From contig JAJZHM010000011.1 of NCBI GenBank assembly GCA_021804485.1, positions 1-34,330 on the forward strand: a DNA stretch of 34,330 bases, read 5' to 3'. Made by a program: the position numbers and the translations under genes. This document shows positions 14,445 through 25,345 of this stretch, one piece after another; positions within the stretch are counted from its first letter, which is position 1, and every line of letters starts with the position of its first letter. The notes beneath the pieces were generated by a model. That model searched no databases and was not told the origin of the DNA. It worked only from the letters and a program-made list of their open reading frames with translations. This DNA is from Pseudomonadota bacterium (lineage in GTDB: Bacteria; Pseudomonadota; Gammaproteobacteria; Pseudomonadales; Moraxellaceae).

Positions 14445-15629
<1,185 letters not shown>

Positions 15630-15666
15630 TTAACTACGGCATCATGGCACAAAGCCAAAAATCTGA

Positions 15667-17112
15667 CTAGCGGAGAAAATAAGACTTCAAAAATTTATGT
15701 AAACCTTTATTGAAGGGAGGCAAAAAGTAGTGCAACGGATATATTCTGGACTTTTCAAGTACAGCTTTAGCATTAGAATAGGTCAGAAATCCTTCATGAG
15801 CATGATAGCGTCCCATACCTGATGCGCCAACCCCCCCAAAGGGCAAGTCTTCAATGCCGACATGACTAAGAACTTCATTGACTCCCAAACCACCTGAATG
15901 TGTCTGTTCAGAGACAAAGGCAATTCTTGATGGATGATGGTCAAAATAGTACAAAGCCAAAGGCCGTGGTCGATGGCGCACAAACTCCAAGGCTTCATCA
16001 AGGGAGGTCACTCCCATGACGGGCAAAATGGGGCCAAAAATCTCCTGTTGCATAACCAGCATCTCAGGAGTTACCCCCAGAATCAGGGTTAAAGGCATCT
16101 TCTGTGTTTGACTGAAATCCTCATGTCCTGGATTGATCTCCACAAGAGTGGCACCCTTTTGTCGGGCATCCTGGAGCAGATTTTTCAACCGGCTGTGCTG
16201 TTTTTCATTAATGATTGCCGTATAGTCCGGATTCTCCCGCATCGTGGGGTACATCGCTTGCACATGTTTTTGCATGGCTCGGACAAAATCCTGCAATCGT
16301 GAGTGATTACAGATTACATAGTCCGGCGCAACACAGGTCTGTCCAGCATTCCAGCACTTCCCAAAGGCGATCCTCCCGGCAGCAGTATCAACCGGATAGG
16401 AATCATGAATAATGGCAGGTGATTTACCACCCAACTCAAGCAGAACCGGCGTCAAATGTTCGGCTGCCGCTGCCATGATTTTTTTCCCTACCTCAGTCGA
16501 TCCGGTAAAAGTCAATTGATCAAAAGGCAGTCGGGCAAATGCCTCGGAAATTTCTCCGCGCCCCGCACAGACTGCAATAACATCAGGCGAAGCAACTTCT
16601 GCAAGCAAACAAGACATCACCGAGGCCGTAGCGGGAGTGAATCCAGACATCTTGATCATAACCCGATTTCCGGCCGCCACGGCCGCTGTCAGCGGCCCCA
16701 GAGCCAAAAATACAGGATAATTCCAGGGCACAATCACACCAACAACCCCCAAAGGCTGATAGACCACCCTTGCCTTGGCTGGAAGATGCAAGGGGTTTAC
16801 GGATCGTTTCTGAGGCCGCATCCACTGCGCCAGATGGCGTTCATGATACTTGATGGATTCAAGTGTAGTCATAACCTCCGCAAACAGCGTCTCATCACTG
16901 GAACGGTGTCCAAAGTCAGCTGAGACCGACTGGACTAGATCATCCTTGTAACGAAGTAAAGAAGTGCGTAATCGTTGCAGTACGAGCAGACGATCCTCGA
17001 GGGTTGGCATTGGATGGGCCCGGAAGCCGTTGCGCTGCGCATGAAAGACTCGCTGCATTTCAGCCACATCCGGATTCGTGGACATTTCGAGTACCACCAC
17101 ATGCGCCACCAT
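15667..17112 (-). CDS. Aldehyde dehydrogenase (coniferyl-aldehyde-dehydrogenase type)
   Basis: A 481-residue NAD(P)-dependent ALDH. The catalytic Cys260 lies in NAGQTCVAPDY, the general base Glu226 in LLELGGKSP, and the cofactor-site FTGSTEVGK at 202-210. PWNYP is at 129-133 and Lys154 takes the cofactor role in VMIKMSGFTP, where most relatives have KPSE. The C-terminus is long and hydrophobic/basic (YPLHYFLPPFNKGLHKFLKSYFLR), as in enzymes that act on long-chain or fatty aldehydes at membranes. 'Coniferyl aldehyde dehydrogenase' is the usual database label; an alkanal from wax-ester or alkane turnover is at least as likely here. A consensus promoter and a palindromic operator lie upstream, shared with divergent tetR. 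From memory, P. aeruginosa has a similar coaD-...-ALDH-TetR string (PA0363-PA0367). Confidence 0.93.
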   Translation of the reverse strand: MVAHVVVLEMSTNPDVAEMQRVFHAQRNGFRAHPMPTLEDRLLVLQRLRTSLLRYKDDLVQSVSADFGHRSSDETLFAEVMTTLESIKYHERHLAQWMRPQKRSVNPLHLPAKARVVYQPLGVVGVIVPWNYPVFLALGPLTAAVAAGNRVMIKMSGFTPATASVMSCLLAEVASPDVIAVCAGRGEISEAFARLPFDQLTFTGSTEVGKKIMAAAAEHLTPVLLELGGKSPAIIHDSYPVDTAAGRIAFGKCWNAGQTCVAPDYVICNHSRLQDFVRAMQKHVQAMYPTMRENPDYTAIINEKQHSRLKNLLQDARQKGATLVEINPGHEDFSQTQKMPLTLILGVTPEMLVMQQEIFGPILPVMGVTSLDEALEFVRHRPRPLALYYFDHHPSRIAFVSEQTHSGGLGVNEVLSHVGIEDLPFGGVGASGMGRYHAHEGFLTYSNAKAVLEKSRIYPLHYFLPPFNKGLHKFLKSYFLR

Positions 17113-17207: not shown

Positions 17208-17852
17208 ATGAAAACCCGAGACCGCATCCTGCTCATGAGCCTGAAAATGTTCAATGAACAGGGCGAACGTTCCGTCACCACCAATCATATTGCCGCGGCC
17301 TTGAACATGAGCCCCGGCAATCTGTATTACTACTTCAAGAACAAGGAGGCCATCATCTTTGAGCTTTTTTGTCATTATGAGTTAAGAACAAGGGCTTATC
17401 TCCGCGCAGATCCTGATCAACAACTCACCTGGTCAGATATCTTACGTTACTTCAAAGAGATTGCGCGCAACATCTGGGACTACCGCTTCCTGCATCGGGA
17501 CCTTGAGCAGCTTTTGGCCCATAACCCGCAATTGCTCGCACAATACCGGCTTTTTGCCCAGGATGTGATGAGCTCAGGCCGTCATATCATGCAGCTTATG
17601 AACAGTTCGGGGTTACTTCAGGCTAACGATGATGAGCTGGACGCCCTGATCATTAATACCTGGGTAATCGCAACCGGGTGGGCACCATTCCTACACGCCA
17701 CTGCCGTTTTCGGTCCACTTGGCACAGAACTAACTCAAGCAATGATTCATCGGGGAATTCGCCAAATCCTCTACCTGCTCAAACCCTATCTGAGTCAGGA
17801 TGCATTGAATGCTTTACCTGAGCTTCTGGAATATTACAACAAAATCTCCTGA
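17208..17852 (+). CDS. TetR/AcrR-family transcriptional repressor
   Basis: A 214-residue regulator with an N-terminal helix-turn-helix: RDRILLMSLKMFNEQGERSVTTNHIAAALNMSPGNLYYYFKNKEAIIFELF, the standard TetR DNA-binding block (residues about 4-52), where MSPGNLYYYFKNK is the recognition helix. The larger C-terminal half is helical and rich in aromatic and hydrophobic residues, a ligand and dimer domain. The effector is unknown; an aldehyde, fatty acid or acyl-CoA would suit its target gene. It is divergent from the aldehyde dehydrogenase with the palindrome between them, so local regulation is strongly suggested. No strong ribosome site is visible before the ATG. It converges on the histidine kinase gene with 33 bp between the stops. 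Confidence 0.9.
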   Translation: MKTRDRILLMSLKMFNEQGERSVTTNHIAAALNMSPGNLYYYFKNKEAIIFELFCHYELRTRAYLRADPDQQLTWSDILRYFKEIARNIWDYRFLHRDLEQLLAHNPQLLAQYRLFAQDVMSSGRHIMQLMNSSGLLQANDDELDALIINTWVIATGWAPFLHATAVFGPLGTELTQAMIHRGIRQILYLLKPYLSQDALNALPELLEYYNKIS

Positions 17853-17885: not shown

Positions 17886-18593
17886 TTAGGGAATATGGAT
17901 AGAAAACACCCCGCCACCCAAAGTTCCACCATTTTGTACGCGAATAAAACCATGAACGCCATTACGTTGGTGCAATGCGGCAATCCGACCCGCAAAATAA
18001 AGGCCAAGTCCTGTGCTACCTGTAGACTGCTTGATTCCAAGCACATATCCAGCCTGACCGGCAAGCATGGCGGCCGGATATCCGACGCCATCATCCTCAA
18101 CAGATAGTACGGTAAAACCATCCTCAACATAGGCCCGTAATGCCACTTTCGAACGGGCATAGCGCACGGTATTAATGATGATATTGGCAATCACAGTACC
18201 CATCAGATCCCGATCAAAGAAAGCTTCAAAAACATCTTCTGCAAGTTGAATCTCCGAGTCAATGGAACGAGACTGGAGGAGCTCCTGATAGCGTGCGCGT
18301 TGCGCCTCAAGAAAATCCTCCAGATCCTGCCATTCCGGATGCAAAGGCAGCTGATTGACGTTCATCTTGTAGAGGCCAAGCAACTGCATGAGCATGCCAT
18401 TCAGGCGACCCGATTCATATTCAATAATGCCCCGCTCATGATTCCATGCCTGCTCAGGGGGCAATGCTTCAACCCAAGTCGAGAATGCCTGCAAAAACAT
18501 TCCCAGTGAATTTTTCATATCATGGACGGTCGAAGCGATTACCATCGAAAAATCGAGTTGGGAATCATCATCCTGGCCTTTTGATTCTGTCAT
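17886..18593 (-). CDS. Small sensorless histidine kinase (HisKA-HATPase)
   Basis: A 235-residue cytosolic kinase with no membrane segment and no sensory domain. The H-box VHDMKNSLG puts the phospho-acceptor at His24. The ATPase part shows an N-box (IIINTVRYA), G1 (VEDDGVGYP) and G2 (GSTGLGLYFA), so the catalytic core is complete but minimal. The start at 18593 is chosen because GAGG lies seven bases before the ATG; the TTG at 18599 is the alternative. It begins nine bases after the stop of the REC-TPR gene, and its ribosome site overlaps that stop, so the two are translationally linked partners. With no input domain of its own, it must receive its signal from another protein, possibly the TPR regulator or the upstream permease or Pst components. 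Confidence 0.9.
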   Translation of the reverse strand: MTESKGQDDDSQLDFSMVIASTVHDMKNSLGMFLQAFSTWVEALPPEQAWNHERGIIEYESGRLNGMLMQLLGLYKMNVNQLPLHPEWQDLEDFLEAQRARYQELLQSRSIDSEIQLAEDVFEAFFDRDLMGTVIANIIINTVRYARSKVALRAYVEDGFTVLSVEDDGVGYPAAMLAGQAGYVLGIKQSTGSTGLGLYFAGRIAALHQRNGVHGFIRVQNGGTLGGGVFSIHIP

Positions 18594-18602
18594 CACCAAA
18601 CC

Positions 18603-20216
18603 TCACTTGGAAATCAACCGACGCAGTTTTTGCATGCGCTCGTAACGGCTATCGCCTGGGGACATCTCTTTAAGATTATTGAGGAGTTGTGCAGCCTGAT
18701 TCTTATACTCGTTCGTCATTTCAGGCTGAATCTTACTGGCCTGAATAAGATTCTGCACCGCATTCAACACAATGGTAATATTTCTGGGCTGCAAGTCACT
18801 GGCCACTTGAAACGATTTGATTGCCTCGACAAATTGTCGTTTTTCATAAAGCGCTGCGGCCGCCTTATTAAGCTGCCGCGCCTGAGCAACCCGTGCCATC
18901 AGCTCAGCTGCACCACCCTGTTCGGTCAGCGATTGTAGAATTTTGGGATCATCCCCGTACATTTCAGCACAGGTATGCAGTAACTTCTGAGCTGTGTCTT
19001 CCTGGCCAACCTCTTTCAGCTGTTCAATAACATCGAGTGCGGCATCGGCAGAAAAGAAGTGCGGCATAGCAGCCATCGAATCGGTGGCCTTTTTAGCCCA
19101 CTGCTGAGCTTCCTTTTCTTTGCCGGAATTCTTCAGGGTAACAGCCTGTGCAAGGAAGCTGCGTGCCAGCACAGCCTTGTCTTCTGAATAATCCTTGTTT
19201 AGTTCAGAAAGCACCTTCAGAGTTTCTTCCTGATAACGACGGTCAAGGCTCGTACCTTCTTTACTTGCATGCTCATTCACCACTGAAACAAACTTGATGT
19301 AATTATCCGGAGATTTCAGGCATGAACCTCTGCCAAGTTCAACAGATTCCCGAAAGGCCTTAACTGCTGTTTCGAGATCACCATTGGTTCGCGCCAAATC
19401 ACCCAATTTCATCTGCCGACTCAAAGAGCGTGGAGATGTTTTCAATGCCTCCTGAATGGTCTGCTGTGCTGCTTCTTTCTGTTCCAGCATCAGCTGAGCT
19501 TCAGCAAGCACATCATAAAGAGCTGGCAACTGAGGAAATTGGTTAATAGCATCCTGCATCAAGATCTCAACTGCACCCGCATCTCCTTTGCGCAGCATTA
19601 GGCGACCTAACATGATGAGAGCCCAAGGTACGGGTCGTTGCGACACAACATCGCGAAGCAGAATCTCGAGGTCTTTATTGTTGCCCATATTTGCAAAGGC
19701 CAAAGCTTTTTTTCGAACAGCCATTGCCGCATATTTTCGGTGCGTGGTGATCAACTGGTCACATGCATGAACCATATCCTGCCAGGCTTCCCGAGCAGCG
19801 GCATCATTAACATTCGCCATGGCTTCCCGACGCTCTACCAGTTTATCGAGCCTTTGCAGCAATGCTGCCCGATTGAACGGTTTGGTGAGGTAGTCGTCCG
19901 GCTCGTATTCAACCGCACTCATGACCATGGCCAAGGAATTTTCTGCAGTTACCATGATAAAAATCGTGTGGGGACTCAGTAATTTCTCCAAGGTCAGCTC
20001 TTCCAGAACCTGCTGGCCGTTTTTACCAGGCCCCAAATTATAATCATGCAGGATAATGTCGTACTTCTTCTTACGACACATAGCGATGGCTTCTTCACCT
20101 GAGGCACCAACATCGACGTTGACTGCGCCAATCTGTCGAAGCATGGCCTTGACCGAGTTTCGGAACTCCGTGAAATCATCAACGACAAGAAAAGACTTTT
20201 GTGTGTAAGAAATCAT
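18603..20216 (-). CDS. Response regulator with C-terminal TPR repeats
   Basis: A 537-residue protein. The CheY-like receiver covers about residues 6-125: acidic pair Asp13-Asp14, phospho-acceptor Asp58 in ILHDYNLG, Thr90 in FIMVTAE and Lys112 in DYLTKPF, all present. The remainder (about 150-537) is helical with several TPR-like units (WALIMLGRLMLRKGDAGAVE; LYDVLAEAQLMLEQKEAAQ; RQMKLGDLARTNGDLETAV; and a late ALYEKRQFVEAIKSFQVA). There is no DNA-binding or enzymatic output domain, so output is likely by protein-protein contact. No convincing ribosome site is seen; AAGGG is 13 bases upstream. It is followed directly by the small histidine kinase and preceded by the permease with a hairpin across the junction. 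Confidence 0.92.
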   Translation of the reverse strand: MISYTQKSFLVVDDFTEFRNSVKAMLRQIGAVNVDVGASGEEAIAMCRKKKYDIILHDYNLGPGKNGQQVLEELTLEKLLSPHTIFIMVTAENSLAMVMSAVEYEPDDYLTKPFNRAALLQRLDKLVERREAMANVNDAAAREAWQDMVHACDQLITTHRKYAAMAVRKKALAFANMGNNKDLEILLRDVVSQRPVPWALIMLGRLMLRKGDAGAVEILMQDAINQFPQLPALYDVLAEAQLMLEQKEAAQQTIQEALKTSPRSLSRQMKLGDLARTNGDLETAVKAFRESVELGRGSCLKSPDNYIKFVSVVNEHASKEGTSLDRRYQEETLKVLSELNKDYSEDKAVLARSFLAQAVTLKNSGKEKEAQQWAKKATDSMAAMPHFFSADAALDVIEQLKEVGQEDTAQKLLHTCAEMYGDDPKILQSLTEQGGAAELMARVAQARQLNKAAAALYEKRQFVEAIKSFQVASDLQPRNITIVLNAVQNLIQASKIQPEMTNEYKNQAAQLLNNLKEMSPGDSRYERMQKLRRLISK

Positions 20217-20234
20217 CAGCGGATGTATACCCTT

Positions 20235-20258
20235 GCCAGACTAACATTATGGTCTGGC
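20235..20258 (-). other. Hairpin across the permease stop / response-regulator leader
   Basis: GCCAGAC and GTCTGGC form a perfect 7-bp stem around a 10-base loop. The permease stop codon lies in the loop, and in the mRNA the 3' arm is followed by AAGGG and then the response-regulator ATG 18 bases on. No U-tract follows. It may attenuate or protect the message between the transport genes and the two-component genes. Confidence 0.5.
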
Positions 20259-21320
20259 TAAAACTATAGCACTGACCATCCATGAAACCCATAAAAATGC
20301 AAAGGAATACATATGAAATCTCCATAATATTCCATGGGGTCTTCCCGGCCAGCGCAACATGATGATGTTGGCCAGAGAACCCGTAGCTATACCAAATCCG
20401 CCGGTATTAACGGCATACATCAATACCGGCACCGGTATGTGTGTATGCACCAACATTAAAGTTGCCGGTACATTGCTGATGATCTGGGAAAGGATGATAC
20501 CTGCCATCAACCCGGTTTGCTTTGTCCAGACAACGTGATCAAGCCAATATTGGATGTCTGGAATATTCTGCAACAGCGCGATATCCAGAAACATCAAAAA
20601 GAATATGTAGGCAAGTTCTGGCTTCCAATATTTGAGCCAGCGCGCATGGCGAACCAGAACAAGGAGCAGAATCCCCAACTCGCATCTCCAGAACTGATGA
20701 TCGGCCAATACAATAAACAAGATCAGCATCAGGACAAGCTCTCTGGCCTGAGTATGAACCCGCACGTGTTCGGCATGGAGATGTAGAGCAACAGCGTCCT
20801 TTCCTACCCTGTGCCACAACCAGACCAACAGTACAACCAGCAACGTCAATGTTAACGGCGCCATTGCTTCGACAAAGTGACTGACTGTCCAATGACTGGT
20901 CTGCCAGAGAATCACGTTCTGAGGATTCCCGAACGGGGTAATCATTGAACCAATATTGGCGGCACACGCCACACCAATCCACATCTTCCGGTCCGAAGCA
21001 GGACCTAAACGTACTTGGGCAAGCATCGGCAGTACAATCAAAAGAGCAACATCGTTGGTTAGGAGCGCCGCAAGCACACAGGTAAAAAGACAGATCAGCA
21101 AAATCCAGCTGCGCTCGTCCCTCACTTTCTGTACCCCATAACTGGCTACTGCCTGGGCCAGTCCTGTCTGTTGCAGGGCATGAACCATCAATAGCAAGCC
21201 AAGAACAGTGATCAATGATTGCCAGTCAAGACCATGAAGGGTTAGCCAAAAACTTTGGACTGAGAGGAAATAGAGCGCAATGCCAATGAGCATCAGCAAT
21301 AGAACCAATGGGTCCCGCAC
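20247..21320 (-). CDS. Ion-transporter-superfamily permease (ArsB/CitM/SLC13-like)
   Basis: A 357-residue inner-membrane protein with about nine to ten hydrophobic segments. The paired signatures TNDVALLIVLPML and GSMITPFGNPQNVIL are those of the ion-transporter superfamily (ArsB, CitMHS, NhaD, YbiR); the second half repeats the theme as SQIISNVPATLML and NTGGFGIATGSLANIIML. The substrate cannot be read: arsenite, citrate, sodium or another anion are all possible. It is short compared with ArsB (about 430). The start is a GTG with AGGGG nine bases upstream; that ribosome site lies in the arm of a hairpin. It sits 47 bp behind pstA where pstB is normally found, and 30 bp before the REC-TPR gene, which suggests a link to phosphate or arsenate handling, though this is inference. 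Confidence 0.82.
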   Translation of the reverse strand: MRDPLVLLLMLIGIALYFLSVQSFWLTLHGLDWQSLITVLGLLLMVHALQQTGLAQAVASYGVQKVRDERSWILLICLFTCVLAALLTNDVALLIVLPMLAQVRLGPASDRKMWIGVACAANIGSMITPFGNPQNVILWQTSHWTVSHFVEAMAPLTLTLLVVLLVWLWHRVGKDAVALHLHAEHVRVHTQARELVLMLILFIVLADHQFWRCELGILLLVLVRHARWLKYWKPELAYIFFLMFLDIALLQNIPDIQYWLDHVVWTKQTGLMAGIILSQIISNVPATLMLVHTHIPVPVLMYAVNTGGFGIATGSLANIIMLRWPGRPHGILWRFHMYSFAFLWVSWMVSAIVLARP

Positions 21321-21330
21321 GAATAGTAAC

Positions 21331-21363
21331 CCCTAAACCAACATGGTGGACAAACTTTTAGGG
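21331..21363 (-). other. Hairpin between pstA and the permease gene
   Basis: CCCTAAA and TTTAGGG form a 7-bp stem around a 19-base loop that itself can pair weakly (CCA/TGG). In the mRNA it begins four bases after the pstA stop, and the 3' arm contains most of the AGGGG ribosome site of the permease. No U-tract follows. It may reduce permease translation or mark partial termination. Confidence 0.45.
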
Positions 21364-21367
21364 ATTA

Positions 21368-22210
21368 TCAAGCATGCCGTTTAAATATCGCACGCGCAGC
21401 AAGATTCAGCAGCACAACGAACACGCTGATTAATGCAGCACCAGCCCAAGCCAGTGACTGCCAGTTGTCATACGGGCTCATGGCAAACTGGAAGATAACA
21501 ACAGGAAGATTGGCAAGCGGCTGATTCAGGTTCGCTGAATAAAACTGGTTGTTTAAAGCCGTAAAAAGAAGTGGTGCTGTTTCGCCACTGATACGTGCTA
21601 CAGCCAGAAGCACTCCTGTTACCACCCCATTACGCGCAGCGGGCAAGCAGATCATTAAAATTGTCTGACGCCGTGTCGCACCCAAGGCATATGCGCCTTC
21701 ACGCAGCACATCGGGCACCAGTTGCAGCATGTTTTCAGTTGTTCGAACCATGATAGGCAAGGCGATAATGGCAAGGGAAATACCCCCCGCCCATCCGGAA
21801 AAATGATGCATCGGCACCACAAAAATAACATAAACAAAAAGGCCAATAACGATTGATGGCGCAGACAGGAGAATGTCATTCACAAAACGGATAACCGAAG
21901 CAATGCGATGGTGCTTACCATACTCAGCGAGGTAGATTCCTGCGATAATGGCAACAGGGATCGCCATCACCGTACCCAAGCCTACCATTTCAAGACTTCC
22001 AACAATCGCATTCATCAGGCCACCTGGACCATCTGGAGGCGGCGTGATTTGGGTAAAAAGGTCCAGATTAAATGAGCCAAATCCTCGGGAAATAACCGTC
22101 AGTATAATCCAGAGCGGCAGTGCCATACCAATTAAGGTAATGATCCACGCGAACACCATGGCAAGCCTGTTGGTGAATTTTCTCTTTTTATCATACCATT
22201 GAGGACTCAT
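21368..22210 (-). CDS. pstA: Phosphate ABC transporter permease PstA
   Basis: A 280-residue inner-membrane subunit of the high-affinity phosphate importer. It has six membrane segments, with the first at about residues 15-38, and the ABC permease EAA-like loop near TENMLQLVPDVLREGAYALGATRRQTI, followed by LPAARNGVVTGVLLAVARISGETAPLLFTA, a conserved PstA block. Its ATG overlaps the pstC stop as ATGA, so the two are translationally coupled. The length is slightly below E. coli PstA (296). The expected next gene, pstB, is absent; a different permease follows. Confidence 0.95.
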   Translation of the reverse strand: MSPQWYDKKRKFTNRLAMVFAWIITLIGMALPLWIILTVISRGFGSFNLDLFTQITPPPDGPGGLMNAIVGSLEMVGLGTVMAIPVAIIAGIYLAEYGKHHRIASVIRFVNDILLSAPSIVIGLFVYVIFVVPMHHFSGWAGGISLAIIALPIMVRTTENMLQLVPDVLREGAYALGATRRQTILMICLPAARNGVVTGVLLAVARISGETAPLLFTALNNQFYSANLNQPLANLPVVIFQFAMSPYDNWQSLAWAGAALISVFVVLLNLAARAIFKRHA

Positions 22211-23181
22211 GCCTTTCTCTCCACCCGCATGATCAAAAGACGTGCTACAGCAAGCACAAGGAATGTTATGACAAAAAGAATCAGACCAAGACTCGTCAGC
22301 GCCGAGGCATGCAAAGGATCGGCGGCTTCAGCAAATTCATTGGCAATTACTGAGGCAATGCTGTTTCCAGAATCAAACAGCGCAAGCGAAATCTGATTGT
22401 TATTGCCGATCATGAAGGTTACCGCCATGGTTTCACCCAAGGCACGACCCAATCCAAGCATAATCCCGCCCACCAAGGCAATGCGGGTGTAAGGAACAAC
22501 GATATCCCACATCACCTCCCAGGTCGTACCGCCAATACCATAGCCTGCTTCCTTGAGTGAGAAGGGTACTACTTCAAAAACCTCTCGCATAACGGATGTG
22601 ATAAATGGAACGATCATCAAAGAAAGGATTAATGCCGAAGGCAACAGTCCAATGCCGATCGGAGGCCCCTGGAAAATGCTTTTTAAAAGCCAGATGTGTC
22701 CAAATACATCGGTCAGAAATGGCTGAACATGATTGGCCAGGATTGGAGCAAGAATGAAAAGCCCCCACATGCCATAAATAATGGAGGGAATGCCTGCGAG
22801 GAGTTCAATAACAGTAACCACAGGTCCGCGGAGGCGTCGGGGACAAAGTTCTGTAATGAAAAATGCAATAAAAAAACTGACTGGAACAGCAATCATGAGG
22901 GCAATGGCAGAAGTTACCAGCGTTCCATAAATTGCTGGCAAAGCACCATATTCATTGCTGACAGGATTCCACTCGGAGCTGATTAGAAAATGCCAGCCGA
23001 AGTGATCATAGGTTAATCGAGATCCGAGAATCAGGGAAACGACAATCGCCCCCAGAACACCAAGAACCAGAAGTGCTGTTCCAGTTACAAACCATTTAAA
23101 ACGTTGATCCCGAGCACGTTCCGCACTCAGCACATGATCTTCCCTGCTTTGATTTCCCTCTAAAAGCGACTGTTCAGACAT
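22207..23181 (-). CDS. pstC: Phosphate ABC transporter permease PstC
   Basis: A 324-residue partner permease of PstA. After a charged 30-residue N-terminus come six membrane segments. Conserved PstC stretches include PAIYGTLVTSAIALMIAVPVS, ELLAGIPSIIYGMWGLF, the EAA-like loop EVFEVVPFSLKEAGYGIGGTTWEV and ALGETMAVTFMIGN. AAGGAA lies six bases before the ATG. It follows pstS by 66 bp and overlaps pstA by four bases, giving the order pstS-pstC-pstA. Confidence 0.96.
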   Translation of the reverse strand: MSEQSLLEGNQSREDHVLSAERARDQRFKWFVTGTALLVLGVLGAIVVSLILGSRLTYDHFGWHFLISSEWNPVSNEYGALPAIYGTLVTSAIALMIAVPVSFFIAFFITELCPRRLRGPVVTVIELLAGIPSIIYGMWGLFILAPILANHVQPFLTDVFGHIWLLKSIFQGPPIGIGLLPSALILSLMIVPFITSVMREVFEVVPFSLKEAGYGIGGTTWEVMWDIVVPYTRIALVGGIMLGLGRALGETMAVTFMIGNNNQISLALFDSGNSIASVIANEFAEAADPLHASALTSLGLILFVITFLVLAVARLLIMRVERKA

Positions 23182-23247
23182 GCGACATTCCTTAGGGAAA
23201 CCTGACCACCGACCAATAGCGACCCGGTGATCAGGTTTGGCTGCATA

Positions 23248-24279
23248 TTACCAGACTTTGGCGCCTGACTTGTCTTTAACCGAATTGCTCCAGTCCAGCT
23301 CAATCATCTTGACAACATTTTCAGGCATTGGAACGTAATCAAGTTCCTTGGCCTGACTGACACCGTGTTTGAAGGACCAGTCAAAGTATTTGAATACATC
23401 CTTCAGTCGTGCTGCATTGTCTGTGACACGAGGAACGAGTGCGAAGGTCGCACCGGTAATCGGCCATGAGGTAGCACCAGGCTCATTGGTCAGAACTTCA
23501 TAAAAGTCCTGATCATGGGTCCAGTCTGCATAGGCTGCTGCCGCCTGGAATGTTGCAATCTCAGGCTTGACGGTCTTGCCATCACGGTTAATCAGCAGTG
23601 TATGGTCCATCTTGGCACCCTTGGCGTAGGCATACTCAACGTAGCCAATCGCACCATTGATGCGCTGTACGTAAGAAGCGACACCCGCATTTCCTTTACC
23701 GGCAACACCAACAGGCCAGTGAACATCGGTGTTATTTCCAACTTTTGTTGCCCACTCCTGATTCACCTTGCTCAGGTAGTTGGTGAAAATGAAGGTCGTA
23801 CCCGAAGCATCAGCACGACGCACGACAGTAATCGGCTCATCTGGCAACTTGGCATCTTTATTGAGTGCTGCAATTGCTGCATCATTCCAGGTCTTGATCT
23901 GGCCCAGATAGATTTTCGACAGTACATCGCCATTCAGACGAATTTCACCGGCGTGGAATCCTTTAAGATTGATGACCGGGACAACCCCACCCATAATGGC
24001 TGGGAACTGACTCAGGCCCTTGGCAACCAGATCATCATGCTTCAGGGGCATATCTGAGGCACCAAAATCTACAGTCCGGGATGTAATCTGCTTGATACCA
24101 CCGCCAGAGCCAATGGCTTGGTAGTTCAGGCCGACATTGGTCGCGCCCTTGTAGCTTGTAGCCCACTTGGCAAAAATGGGATAGGCAAAAGTCGATCCGG
24201 CACCCGTAATATCACCTGCCAAAGCAGCTCCAATGGAGGTAGCCAATGTCATGGCTAGGGTGAGTTTTTTCATCAGCAT
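23248..24279 (-). CDS. pstS: Periplasmic phosphate-binding protein PstS
   Basis: A 343-residue substrate-binding protein of the phosphate importer. A Sec signal peptide (MLMKKLTLAMTLATSIGAALA) is cleaved before GDITGAGSTFAYPIFAKW. Phosphate-site motifs are GAGSTFAYP, GSGGGIKQI, DFGASDMPL and RRADASGTTFIFTNYL, as in E. coli PstS. AGAGGA lies seven bases before the ATG. It heads the pst unit behind a candidate Pho-box promoter, so induction by phosphate starvation through PhoB is expected. Confidence 0.97.
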   Translation of the reverse strand: MLMKKLTLAMTLATSIGAALAGDITGAGSTFAYPIFAKWATSYKGATNVGLNYQAIGSGGGIKQITSRTVDFGASDMPLKHDDLVAKGLSQFPAIMGGVVPVINLKGFHAGEIRLNGDVLSKIYLGQIKTWNDAAIAALNKDAKLPDEPITVVRRADASGTTFIFTNYLSKVNQEWATKVGNNTDVHWPVGVAGKGNAGVASYVQRINGAIGYVEYAYAKGAKMDHTLLINRDGKTVKPEIATFQAAAAYADWTHDQDFYEVLTNEPGATSWPITGATFALVPRVTDNAARLKDVFKYFDWSFKHGVSQAKELDYVPMPENVVKMIELDWSNSVKDKSGAKVW

Positions 24280-24349
24280 GAATCTGTCCTCTGGTTATTC
24301 AATGGTACCTTATGAGTCTTAGACTATTCAGTCTCAGTGAATTGTCGTG

Positions 24350-24390
24350 ATTATATATGACACAATTATTACATTCACGGCATATTCACA
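24350..24390 (-). promoter_or_regulatory. Candidate Pho box and -10 of pstS
   Basis: The minus strand carries TGTGAAT, four bases, then CGTGAAT (24390-24373), two 7-bp direct repeats with the 11-bp period of PhoB half-sites (consensus CTGTCAT), and a perfect TATAAT (24355-24350) 17 bases later. The half-sites deviate from consensus at two to three positions and the gap to the -10 is longer than in E. coli pstS, so the match is moderate; the gene context raises its likelihood. Confidence 0.45.
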
Positions 24391-24400
24391 CAGGATGGGT

Positions 24401-25345
24401 CTAGAATCCTTGCTCCTGGAGCATCCAGAAGAGCAGAAGAAAGGCAGACTCTCCAGCCAGCATGTTCCATGACCATTTTTTATGTGCCAAAAGGATGCCT
24501 GTTGCCATCATGCTGATGATCAGTGCCAAGATCATTGTACTGTTAATGTACCATTGTCCGATGAGTATATTTATGGCTGTCAGAACGGATGCTTGGTAGA
24601 CCAGAGCGCCAGTTATGTTGGCAATGGCTGCTGTTTCGCGCCCGCGCAGCACCCATAGAATACTATTCAGCTTCTCAGGAAGTTCAGTTGCAAGCGGACT
24701 AAATACCAAAGCCATCATCAGTTCATTACCCAGAAAAGAATGAACCTGATGTAGTGCATCAACGAAGTATGAACTCGCGGTCGTCAGGGCAACGATTAGA
24801 AAAAACATTCGACTTGCAAGTATCCAGATTTTTTTCTTAGGGATGCTTTCCCTTTTTGATTTCTGCTGTAATCGGTCTTTTTTGCTTTTTTTCAAAATGC
24901 CACGCAGACGTGCAGCATAGAGGCCCAGCAGTACAACGGCACCTGTAACCTGAATTATATGGTGGTTGTGCAGGAACGAAAGGATCAATCCAAAGGAACA
25001 GAACGCAATAAACCACTTAAGATCTGCATGAATTTCATTAGGGACATGTAATTGCGCTCCGACGCCTTTTTTCAAACGCAGAACAATTCCGATAATAGCG
25101 AGCGCTAGGGTGCTTAAAATAAGGAACGACCCTACGGTCGCTCCCAAGGCAATCTGGGTGTTGTGGTGTACCACCAAGGCCATTAATGGCACGAGAGTCT
25201 CTGGCAGGGTTGTAGCCACTGCAGCAAAGACCGAACCGATTACATGCTGGTCGAGTCCGTATACGTCACCCAATTCATCCAGTGTACGGGTAAAGGCCTC
25301 AGCACAGATTCCTATAACAACAATTAAAGCGACAAGTTCAATCAA
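24401..25345 (-). CDS. CaCA-superfamily cation exchanger (sodium/calcium antiporter-like)
   Basis: A 314-residue membrane protein with two inverted alpha-repeats: VIGSVFAAVATTLPETL with GATVGSFLIL in the first half, and MALVFSPLATELPEKLNSILW in the second. The Pro-Glu pairs hold the ion-binding glutamates of the family. A basic cytosolic loop (KKSKKDRLQQKSKRESIPKKK) divides the halves. The ion (Ca2+, Na+, H+) is unknown. The apparent start is TTG, as no ATG or GTG is available after the upstream stop; the protein is complete from there. It lies 36 bp behind nuoN, in the same reading frame, and very probably shares the nuo transcript. A link between complex I proton pumping and cation exchange is an inference. 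Confidence 0.8.
   Translation of the reverse strand: MIELVALIVVIGICAEAFTRTLDELGDVYGLDQHVIGSVFAAVATTLPETLVPLMALVVHHNTQIALGATVGSFLILSTLALAIIGIVLRLKKGVGAQLHVPNEIHADLKWFIAFCSFGLILSFLHNHHIIQVTGAVVLLGLYAARLRGILKKSKKDRLQQKSKRESIPKKKIWILASRMFFLIVALTTASSYFVDALHQVHSFLGNELMMALVFSPLATELPEKLNSILWVLRGRETAAIANITGALVYQASVLTAINILIGQWYINSTMILALIISMMATGILLAHKKWSWNMLAGESAFLLLFWMLQEQGF

Follow-up and report, generated by a model that had tools for sequence, protein, structure and literature searches.

A pst phosphate-importer cluster without pstB in a Moraxellaceae genome: probable division of an ordinary operon over two loci

We analyzed contig JAJZHM010000011.1 of the Moraxellaceae assembly GCA_021804485.1 over its 34,330 nt (the window), with attention to a pst phosphate-importer cluster and the genes that follow it. 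The window is contig C175 of a genome (G000) of 2.44 Mb in 175 contigs, 94% complete; it was compared with its congeners G001 and G002, with G004 and G019 from one sister genus, and with G006 and G021 from another. Six genes run in a row on the minus strand: pstS, pstC and pstA, then a permease, a REC-TPR response regulator and a small histidine kinase (Table 1). A preliminary description of this DNA had the gene order, strand and spacing right: the pstA-permease gap is 47 bp, the permease-REC-TPR gap 30 bp, and the REC-TPR-kinase gap nine bases if the kinase starts at the ATG at 18593. As it also stated, neither pstB, for the importer ATPase, nor phoU is found between pstS and the kinase gene. 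It went on to suggest that the permease and the regulator stand in for PstB-PhoU in a phosphate- or arsenate-related signalling unit; comparison with relatives argues instead that pstSCA is one half of an ordinary importer whose operon was divided.

Table 1. Features of the pst cluster and its surroundings (window positions)
Feature	Position	Strand	Evidence or remark
Small histidine kinase, no called sensor domain	17886..18599	-	HATPase_c 35.8 bits; TTG start 18599, ATG possible 18593
REC-TPR response regulator, 537 aa, no DNA-binding domain called	18603..20216	-	Response_reg 72 bits + TPR families
Stretch kept in G002	20175..20308	-	blastn 81% over 134 columns; includes G002 REC-TPR start
CitMHS/DASS-type anion permease, 357 aa, GTG start	20247..21320	-	Pfam CitMHS 91.1 bits (cut-off 31.9)
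pstA, permease subunit	21368..22210	-	TIGR00974 280 bits (cut-off 193)
pstC, permease subunit	22207..23181	-	TIGR02138 304 bits (cut-off 196)
pstS, phosphate-binding protein	23248..24279	-	NF008171/PRK10918 407 bits (cut-off 339); TIGR00975 369 bits, above cut-off
Pho-box-like site	24357..24374	-	77 bp before pstS ATG; 19.4 bits, best in window
CaCA-type exchanger, flank upstream of pstS, not importer part	24401..25345	-	Na_Ca_ex 77.9 bits

The identities predicted for the cluster genes by profile matching lie far beyond chance. The narrower E. coli-type models stay below their cut-offs for PstC (NF008435, 398 bits against 502) and PstA (NF008430, 383 bits against 439).

PstB was sought with TIGR00972, which exceeded its cut-off in 13 of 14 control genomes and in 35 of 38 searched genomes; the three exceptions, G000, G001 and G002, are the whole sampled genus. 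PstB lies within 0.5 kb of a pstA-like match on the same contig in 31 of the 35 PstB genomes (match positions compared by eye). The remaining four are G004, G019, G006 and G021; they make up the two genera with PstA nearest to that of the window (76-79%), and all four have pstB immediately before phoU, in a block ordered ubiC-ubiA-phoB-phoR > < hisC2-phoU-pstB > thioesterase-MFS (we take the last gene, named by eye, to be of the MFS type). This block is on a single contig in G019 and G006, with hisC2 and phoU about 1.6 kb apart in the latter; in G004 and G021 it is spread over two contigs and its joint would be as in the others. In the 100% complete G006, pstA is on a 107-kb contig and pstB on one of 53 kb, and both genes are over 10 kb away from the nearer end. 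The usual pstSCAB-phoU arrangement is found in G012, with PstA at 67-68%. Because PstB is away from pstA only in the two closest sister genera, we infer, from this distribution and not from a tree, that the pst operon was already divided in an ancestor shared by these genera and that of the window.

The genome of the window holds most of the same block on contig C120, with ubiC, ubiA, phoB, phoR, hisC2 and phoU in the sister order, and this contig ends 102 bp before phoU, where the four sister genomes hold pstB. Identities to the sisters are 76-84% for phoU and 79-82% for phoB. PhoU (231 bits) and PhoR (405 bits) are above their cut-offs; PhoB was called from Response_reg and Trans_reg_C plus its position, not from TIGR02154. 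The contig of G001 ends 190 bp after ubiA, before any phoB (the ubiA-phoB gap on C120 is 210 bp), and no ubiA match was found in G002. Each of the three genus assemblies thus either breaks off inside the block that carries pstB in the sisters or lacks it. The inference that pstB must be elsewhere is well supported by this second locus, broken in the genome of the window just before phoU. Among the partners to be looked for elsewhere in the genome, phoU, a PhoB-like gene and phoR were found and pstB was not.

The aminotransferase gene of the block is a second hisC-type copy between phoR and phoU, seen on C120 (L051:12085-13143) and in G004, G019, G006 and G021; another hisC-like copy lies elsewhere. 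A fragment at the start of contig C18 (31 bits over 74 positions), considered as the missing PstB, scores so low that we assign it to another ABC ATPase.

Turning to the gene behind pstA, all three NCBIfam matches of the permease (MamN, DASS, NhaD) fall far below their cut-offs (TIGR00785 DASS, 32 versus 198.6). Permease matches at E ≤ 0.001 occur in 26 of 149 family genomes, and only those in G000, G001, G004 and G019, where orthologues lie directly behind pstA, exceed 100 bits; the gene is not beside pstA in G006 and G021. Its identity between G000 and G001 is 37%, versus 79% for PstA, marking it on sequence comparison as an apparently fast-evolving, pst-linked gene. In G002 the permease gene is gone. 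A 307-bp stretch remains there between pstA and the REC-TPR gene, and what is kept consists of about 62 bp of the permease 3' coding end (20247-20308) and the REC-TPR leader.

The sole solved-structure match of the permease at E ≤ 1 is yeast Pho90 (residues 31-168, E 4e-5), a low-affinity phosphate transporter, and a phosphate role for the permease is possible. The suggested link to arsenate found no backing: ArsB profiles of Pfam and NCBIfam gave no match to the permease at E ≤ 0.001, on which ground we rejected an arsenate reading of it, and the eight window proteins scanned for families included no called member of an ars family. A structure prediction of the permease was too poor to use (mean predicted local distance difference test score, pLDDT, 38.5). 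PiT-type transporters (PF01384) were found in none of the seven genomes of the three genera, in a search that did not extend to Na/Pi cotransporters and other carriers. The same family is present in G012, the sole match among the eight genomes searched (G012 and these seven).

The REC-TPR regulator and the kinase carry the conserved residues expected of a two-component response regulator and kinase, as judged from alignment: D13, D14, D58 and K112 are invariant in nine aligned REC-TPR homologues, and the motifs HDMKNSLG, EDDGxGYP and GSTGLGL are conserved in four aligned kinase sequences. We take the former to be the receiver Asp with its acidic pair and Lys, and the latter to be the phospho-acceptor His and the N, G1 and G2 boxes. 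Pfam HisKA gave no match in the kinase. Its predicted structure was too poor (mean pLDDT 45.0) for the two long helices before the ATPase part, of the sort expected in a kinase dimerisation domain, to carry weight.

The two genes are neighbors in all ten loci that we read (the window, G001, G002, G004, G019, G025, G028, G029, G034 and G035). These loci come from the REC-TPR matches listed, without counting matches to the receiver domain only or a 69-residue C-terminal fragment in G004 (C88); from a ten-locus homologue listing, seven Lachnospiraceae loci at 30-38% were left out. The pair adjoins pst in four of the ten (the window, G002, G004 and G019) and is away from it in six, namely G001 and five loci of other families (G025, G028, G029, G034, G035). 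In G001 the pair again has coaD, aldehyde dehydrogenase and TetR genes as neighbors, and pst is on another contig, still beside nuo, so the joint between the two blocks falls between the permease and the REC-TPR gene. The permease and REC-TPR genes are about 850 bp apart in G004 and G019. The preliminary description named a different gene order in most relatives as grounds for refuting it; among the three closest genera, three genomes out of seven have the full order pstSCA-permease-REC-TPR-kinase (G000, G004 and G019, the contig of G019 starting within pstA).

Around the five distant pairs, the scanned neighbors are not phosphate-specific by name: a glutamate synthase domain, rpiA, DctM, yfbR, an M18 peptidase, a W/Y-type tRNA synthetase, slp and a Porin_4 protein. 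The only matches to pst and pho queries there were a 27%-identical ABC ATPase (G035), PhoB receiver-domain matches (G025, G035) and hisC at 51% over 166 residues (G025). A literature search pairing REC-TPR with histidine kinase gave no match, which does not prove that such a report is absent.

Other observations concern the surroundings of the pair. The coaD, aldehyde dehydrogenase and TetR genes accompany it in G000, G001 and G002 (window 17208-17852 and 15111-17112), and in G019 TetR and aldehyde dehydrogenase genes adjoin the kinase, while in G006 and G021 they adjoin pstS. The REC-TPR homologue of G034 is split into two overlapping frames (a REC part and a TPR part) before the kinase gene (L138:6636-8257).

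We scored Pho-box-like sites with a matrix built from eight sites, all from the sister genera, four before phoB and four before pstB. These training sites were chosen by match to the E. coli consensus; for pstB of G004 and G019 the second-ranked site (9/14) was used, which shares its form with G006 and G021, and the higher-ranked one (11/14) was left out. All pstS sites and the phoB site of C120 were kept out of training. The site before pstS leads the window (next best, 10.3 bits), and the phoB site of C120 scores 18.1 bits, ranking first in its contig. Best scores in 20 mononucleotide shuffles of the window averaged 12.8 bits, with 17.5 the highest. The pstS sites of other genomes are weaker than that of the window (G001 11.4, G004 11.4, G006 11.5, G021 13.2 and G012 15.5 bits). 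No comparable site was found by matrix and consensus scans before the permease or the REC-TPR gene, nor, outside a gene, at the pair of G001. A phosphate link is supported for pstSCA itself by its Pho-box-like site. The pstS site shares its form with some E. coli PhoB chromatin immunoprecipitation sites, such as those given for yibT and csrA (PMC10294691).

With the untrained plain consensus, shuffled sequence often equals the observed score in most upstream regions. For the 220 bp upstream of pstS in the window, 14 of 300 shuffles reached the score; the corresponding numbers for other pstS regions are 290 (G001), 63 (G004), 174 (G006, where the start codon used to place the region is probably too far upstream), 197 (G021) and 9 (G012). 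They are 53 for phoB of C120 and 1 for that of G004, and for the best-ranked pstB sites 11 (G004), 7 (G019), 112 (G006) and 189 (G021). In G000 the permease region gives 300, the REC-TPR region 270 and the phoU region 242, and the REC-TPR leader of G002 gives 241. Taken together, the sites make it likely that PhoB controls pstSCA and pstB jointly in this genome.

Terminator-like sites number 16 (8.3 expected) and promoter-like sites 10 (12.2 expected). None of the terminator-like sites lies between pstA and the permease gene, between the permease and REC-TPR genes or between the REC-TPR and kinase genes; one, whose T tail is poor, is inside the permease 3' end (20431-20399). The CaCA exchanger evolves as fast as the permease (37% identity to G001, versus 77-78% for pstS), and the genes upstream of it are presumably nuoN and nuoM, named by eye.

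The explanation that we favor, at a probability of roughly 0.8, is that pstSCA (22-24 kb) would encode one half, periplasmic and membrane-bound, of a single ordinary phosphate importer of the PstSCAB-PhoU type, its operon having been split in the ancestor of the genus and its two sister genera. The pstB gene would belong to the second locus, ubiC-ubiA-phoB-phoR-hisC2-phoU-pstB, broken or missing in the three genus assemblies. PhoB would bind Pho boxes upstream of pstS, phoB and pstB, and both halves would thus be made together under phosphate shortage; PhoU and PhoR would provide the usual coupling of the assembled transporter to PhoB. The permease would be a separate, fast-evolving anion transporter riding in the pst transcript. 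The REC-TPR regulator and kinase would form an independent cytosolic phosphotransfer module (His26 to Asp58) with the TPR part as protein-binding output, like the Vibrio cholerae protein VieB at most, and would abut the pst operon here by happenstance.

Several points weigh against this explanation, some of them in favor of a genus that truly lost pstB and powers PstSCA with an ABC ATPase borrowed from another importer. At 91-95% completeness, none of the three genus genomes yields pstB with the family model or with a sister PstB as query: the best TIGR00972 match in G000 reaches 146 bits against a cut-off of 343, and the sister PstB finds only ABC ATPases, at no more than 39% identity among the matches listed. 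If gaps are random, the same gene missing from three assemblies is a coincidence. Nor is a PstB C-terminus present in the 102 bp before phoU on C120 (three frames, by eye), and the phoU-pstB gap in G004 is about 50 bp, shorter than these 102 bp without pstB; the gap on C120 would therefore have to exceed that of G004, or something else precedes phoU. A longer gap has a precedent in G012 (110 bp between listed frames). PhoU, an above-cut-off PhoR and the second hisC copy are also missing from G001 and G002, so a true loss of the block is possible there. As to regulation, the G001 pstS site (11.4 bits) is outscored by an intragenic site in the same stretch (12.1), those of G004, G006 and G021 are within the range of shuffled 34-kb sequence, and the pstS promoter of G002 is outside its assembly, the contig ending within pstC. 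On the other side, two of the three assemblies end inside the sister pstB block and the third lacks both the block and ubiA. In addition, phoU, phoR and phoB are retained in the genome of the window, and pstA is under purifying selection: between G000 and G002 the nonsynonymous rate (dN) is 0.05 and the synonymous rate (dS) 2.15, dS being computable in five of ten comparisons and above 2 in all five, which leaves only dN of use. Some ATPase must therefore serve PstA. An assembly gap is the most likely reason for the absence of PstB, and we regard loss with a borrowed ATPase as unlikely. Still more improbable, to the point of being barely credible, is that pstSCA is a decaying remnant and phosphate enters otherwise: the unseen pstB and the rearrangement of the cluster between congeners would fit, but the reading frames are intact, dN is low, the Pho-box-like site is retained, and the PiT-type family, the one alternative carrier searched for, is missing from all seven genomes.

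That the permease, regulator and kinase replace PstB-PhoU as a phosphate- or arsenate-signalling unit has in its favor the tight same-strand spacing, the recurrence of the pstA-permease-REC-TPR-kinase order in G004 and G019 and the match to Pho90. The proposal does not hold up well: with PhoU and PhoR present in the genome, nothing needs replacing. Moreover, the pair lives apart from pst in G001 and at the five other-family loci, where the scanned neighbors have no phosphate-specific names. G002 has lost the permease gene, and G006 and G021 do not have it beside pstA; in G004 and G019 about 850 bp lie between the permease and REC-TPR genes, and no Pho-box-like site was found before the permease or REC-TPR gene or, outside a gene, at the G001 pair. 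We consider it very unlikely. Another reading, to which we give a small chance, is that in this lineage, where no PiT-type transporter was found, the pst operon would have acquired a secondary anion permease, weakly Pho90-like, which PhoB would induce from the pstS Pho box as a phosphate or arsenate carrier alongside PstSCAB; the pair, where it abuts, would tune the response under the same promoter.

On the divided-operon explanation, this lineage would keep the importer ATPase and PhoU apart from the rest of the importer, beside phoB-phoR, the halves apparently being held together by a shared Pho box and not by a shared transcript. The main argument for a replacement signalling unit falls away. 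The case is also a caution for fragmentary genomes, where a contig end can make pstSCA seem to lack pstB: at this block, all three congeneric assemblies are either cut or empty.

The system resembles the E. coli-type PstSCAB-PhoU/PhoBR system in that pstS, pstC and pstA exceed TIGRFAM cut-offs, the genome holds PhoU, PhoR and a PhoB-like OmpR-family regulator, and Pho-box-like sites precede pstS and phoB. It differs in that pstSCA and pstB-phoU form two loci in the sister genera, pstB of this genome not being visible. Caulobacter crescentus, according to PMC11208175, has pstS apart from pstCAB-phoUB, so that its PhoB-controlled Pst genes are likewise not confined to a single locus; there, however, the binding protein is separate and the ATPase remains with the permeases, whereas here the ATPase is the separated part. 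The window permease is like the DASS/CitMHS permeases including yeast Pho90 in its above-cut-off CitMHS match and its weak sequence match to Pho90, but has 357 aa versus 881. For the REC-TPR/kinase pair, the nearest described parallel to our knowledge is VieB. According to PMC4352251, VieB is of the REC-TPR kind and both binds its kinase and inhibits it; the likeness, drawn from domain layout alone, is REC followed by TPR with no DNA-binding output. VieB acts on the hybrid kinase VieS together with VieA, while the partner here is a small kinase with no called sensor.

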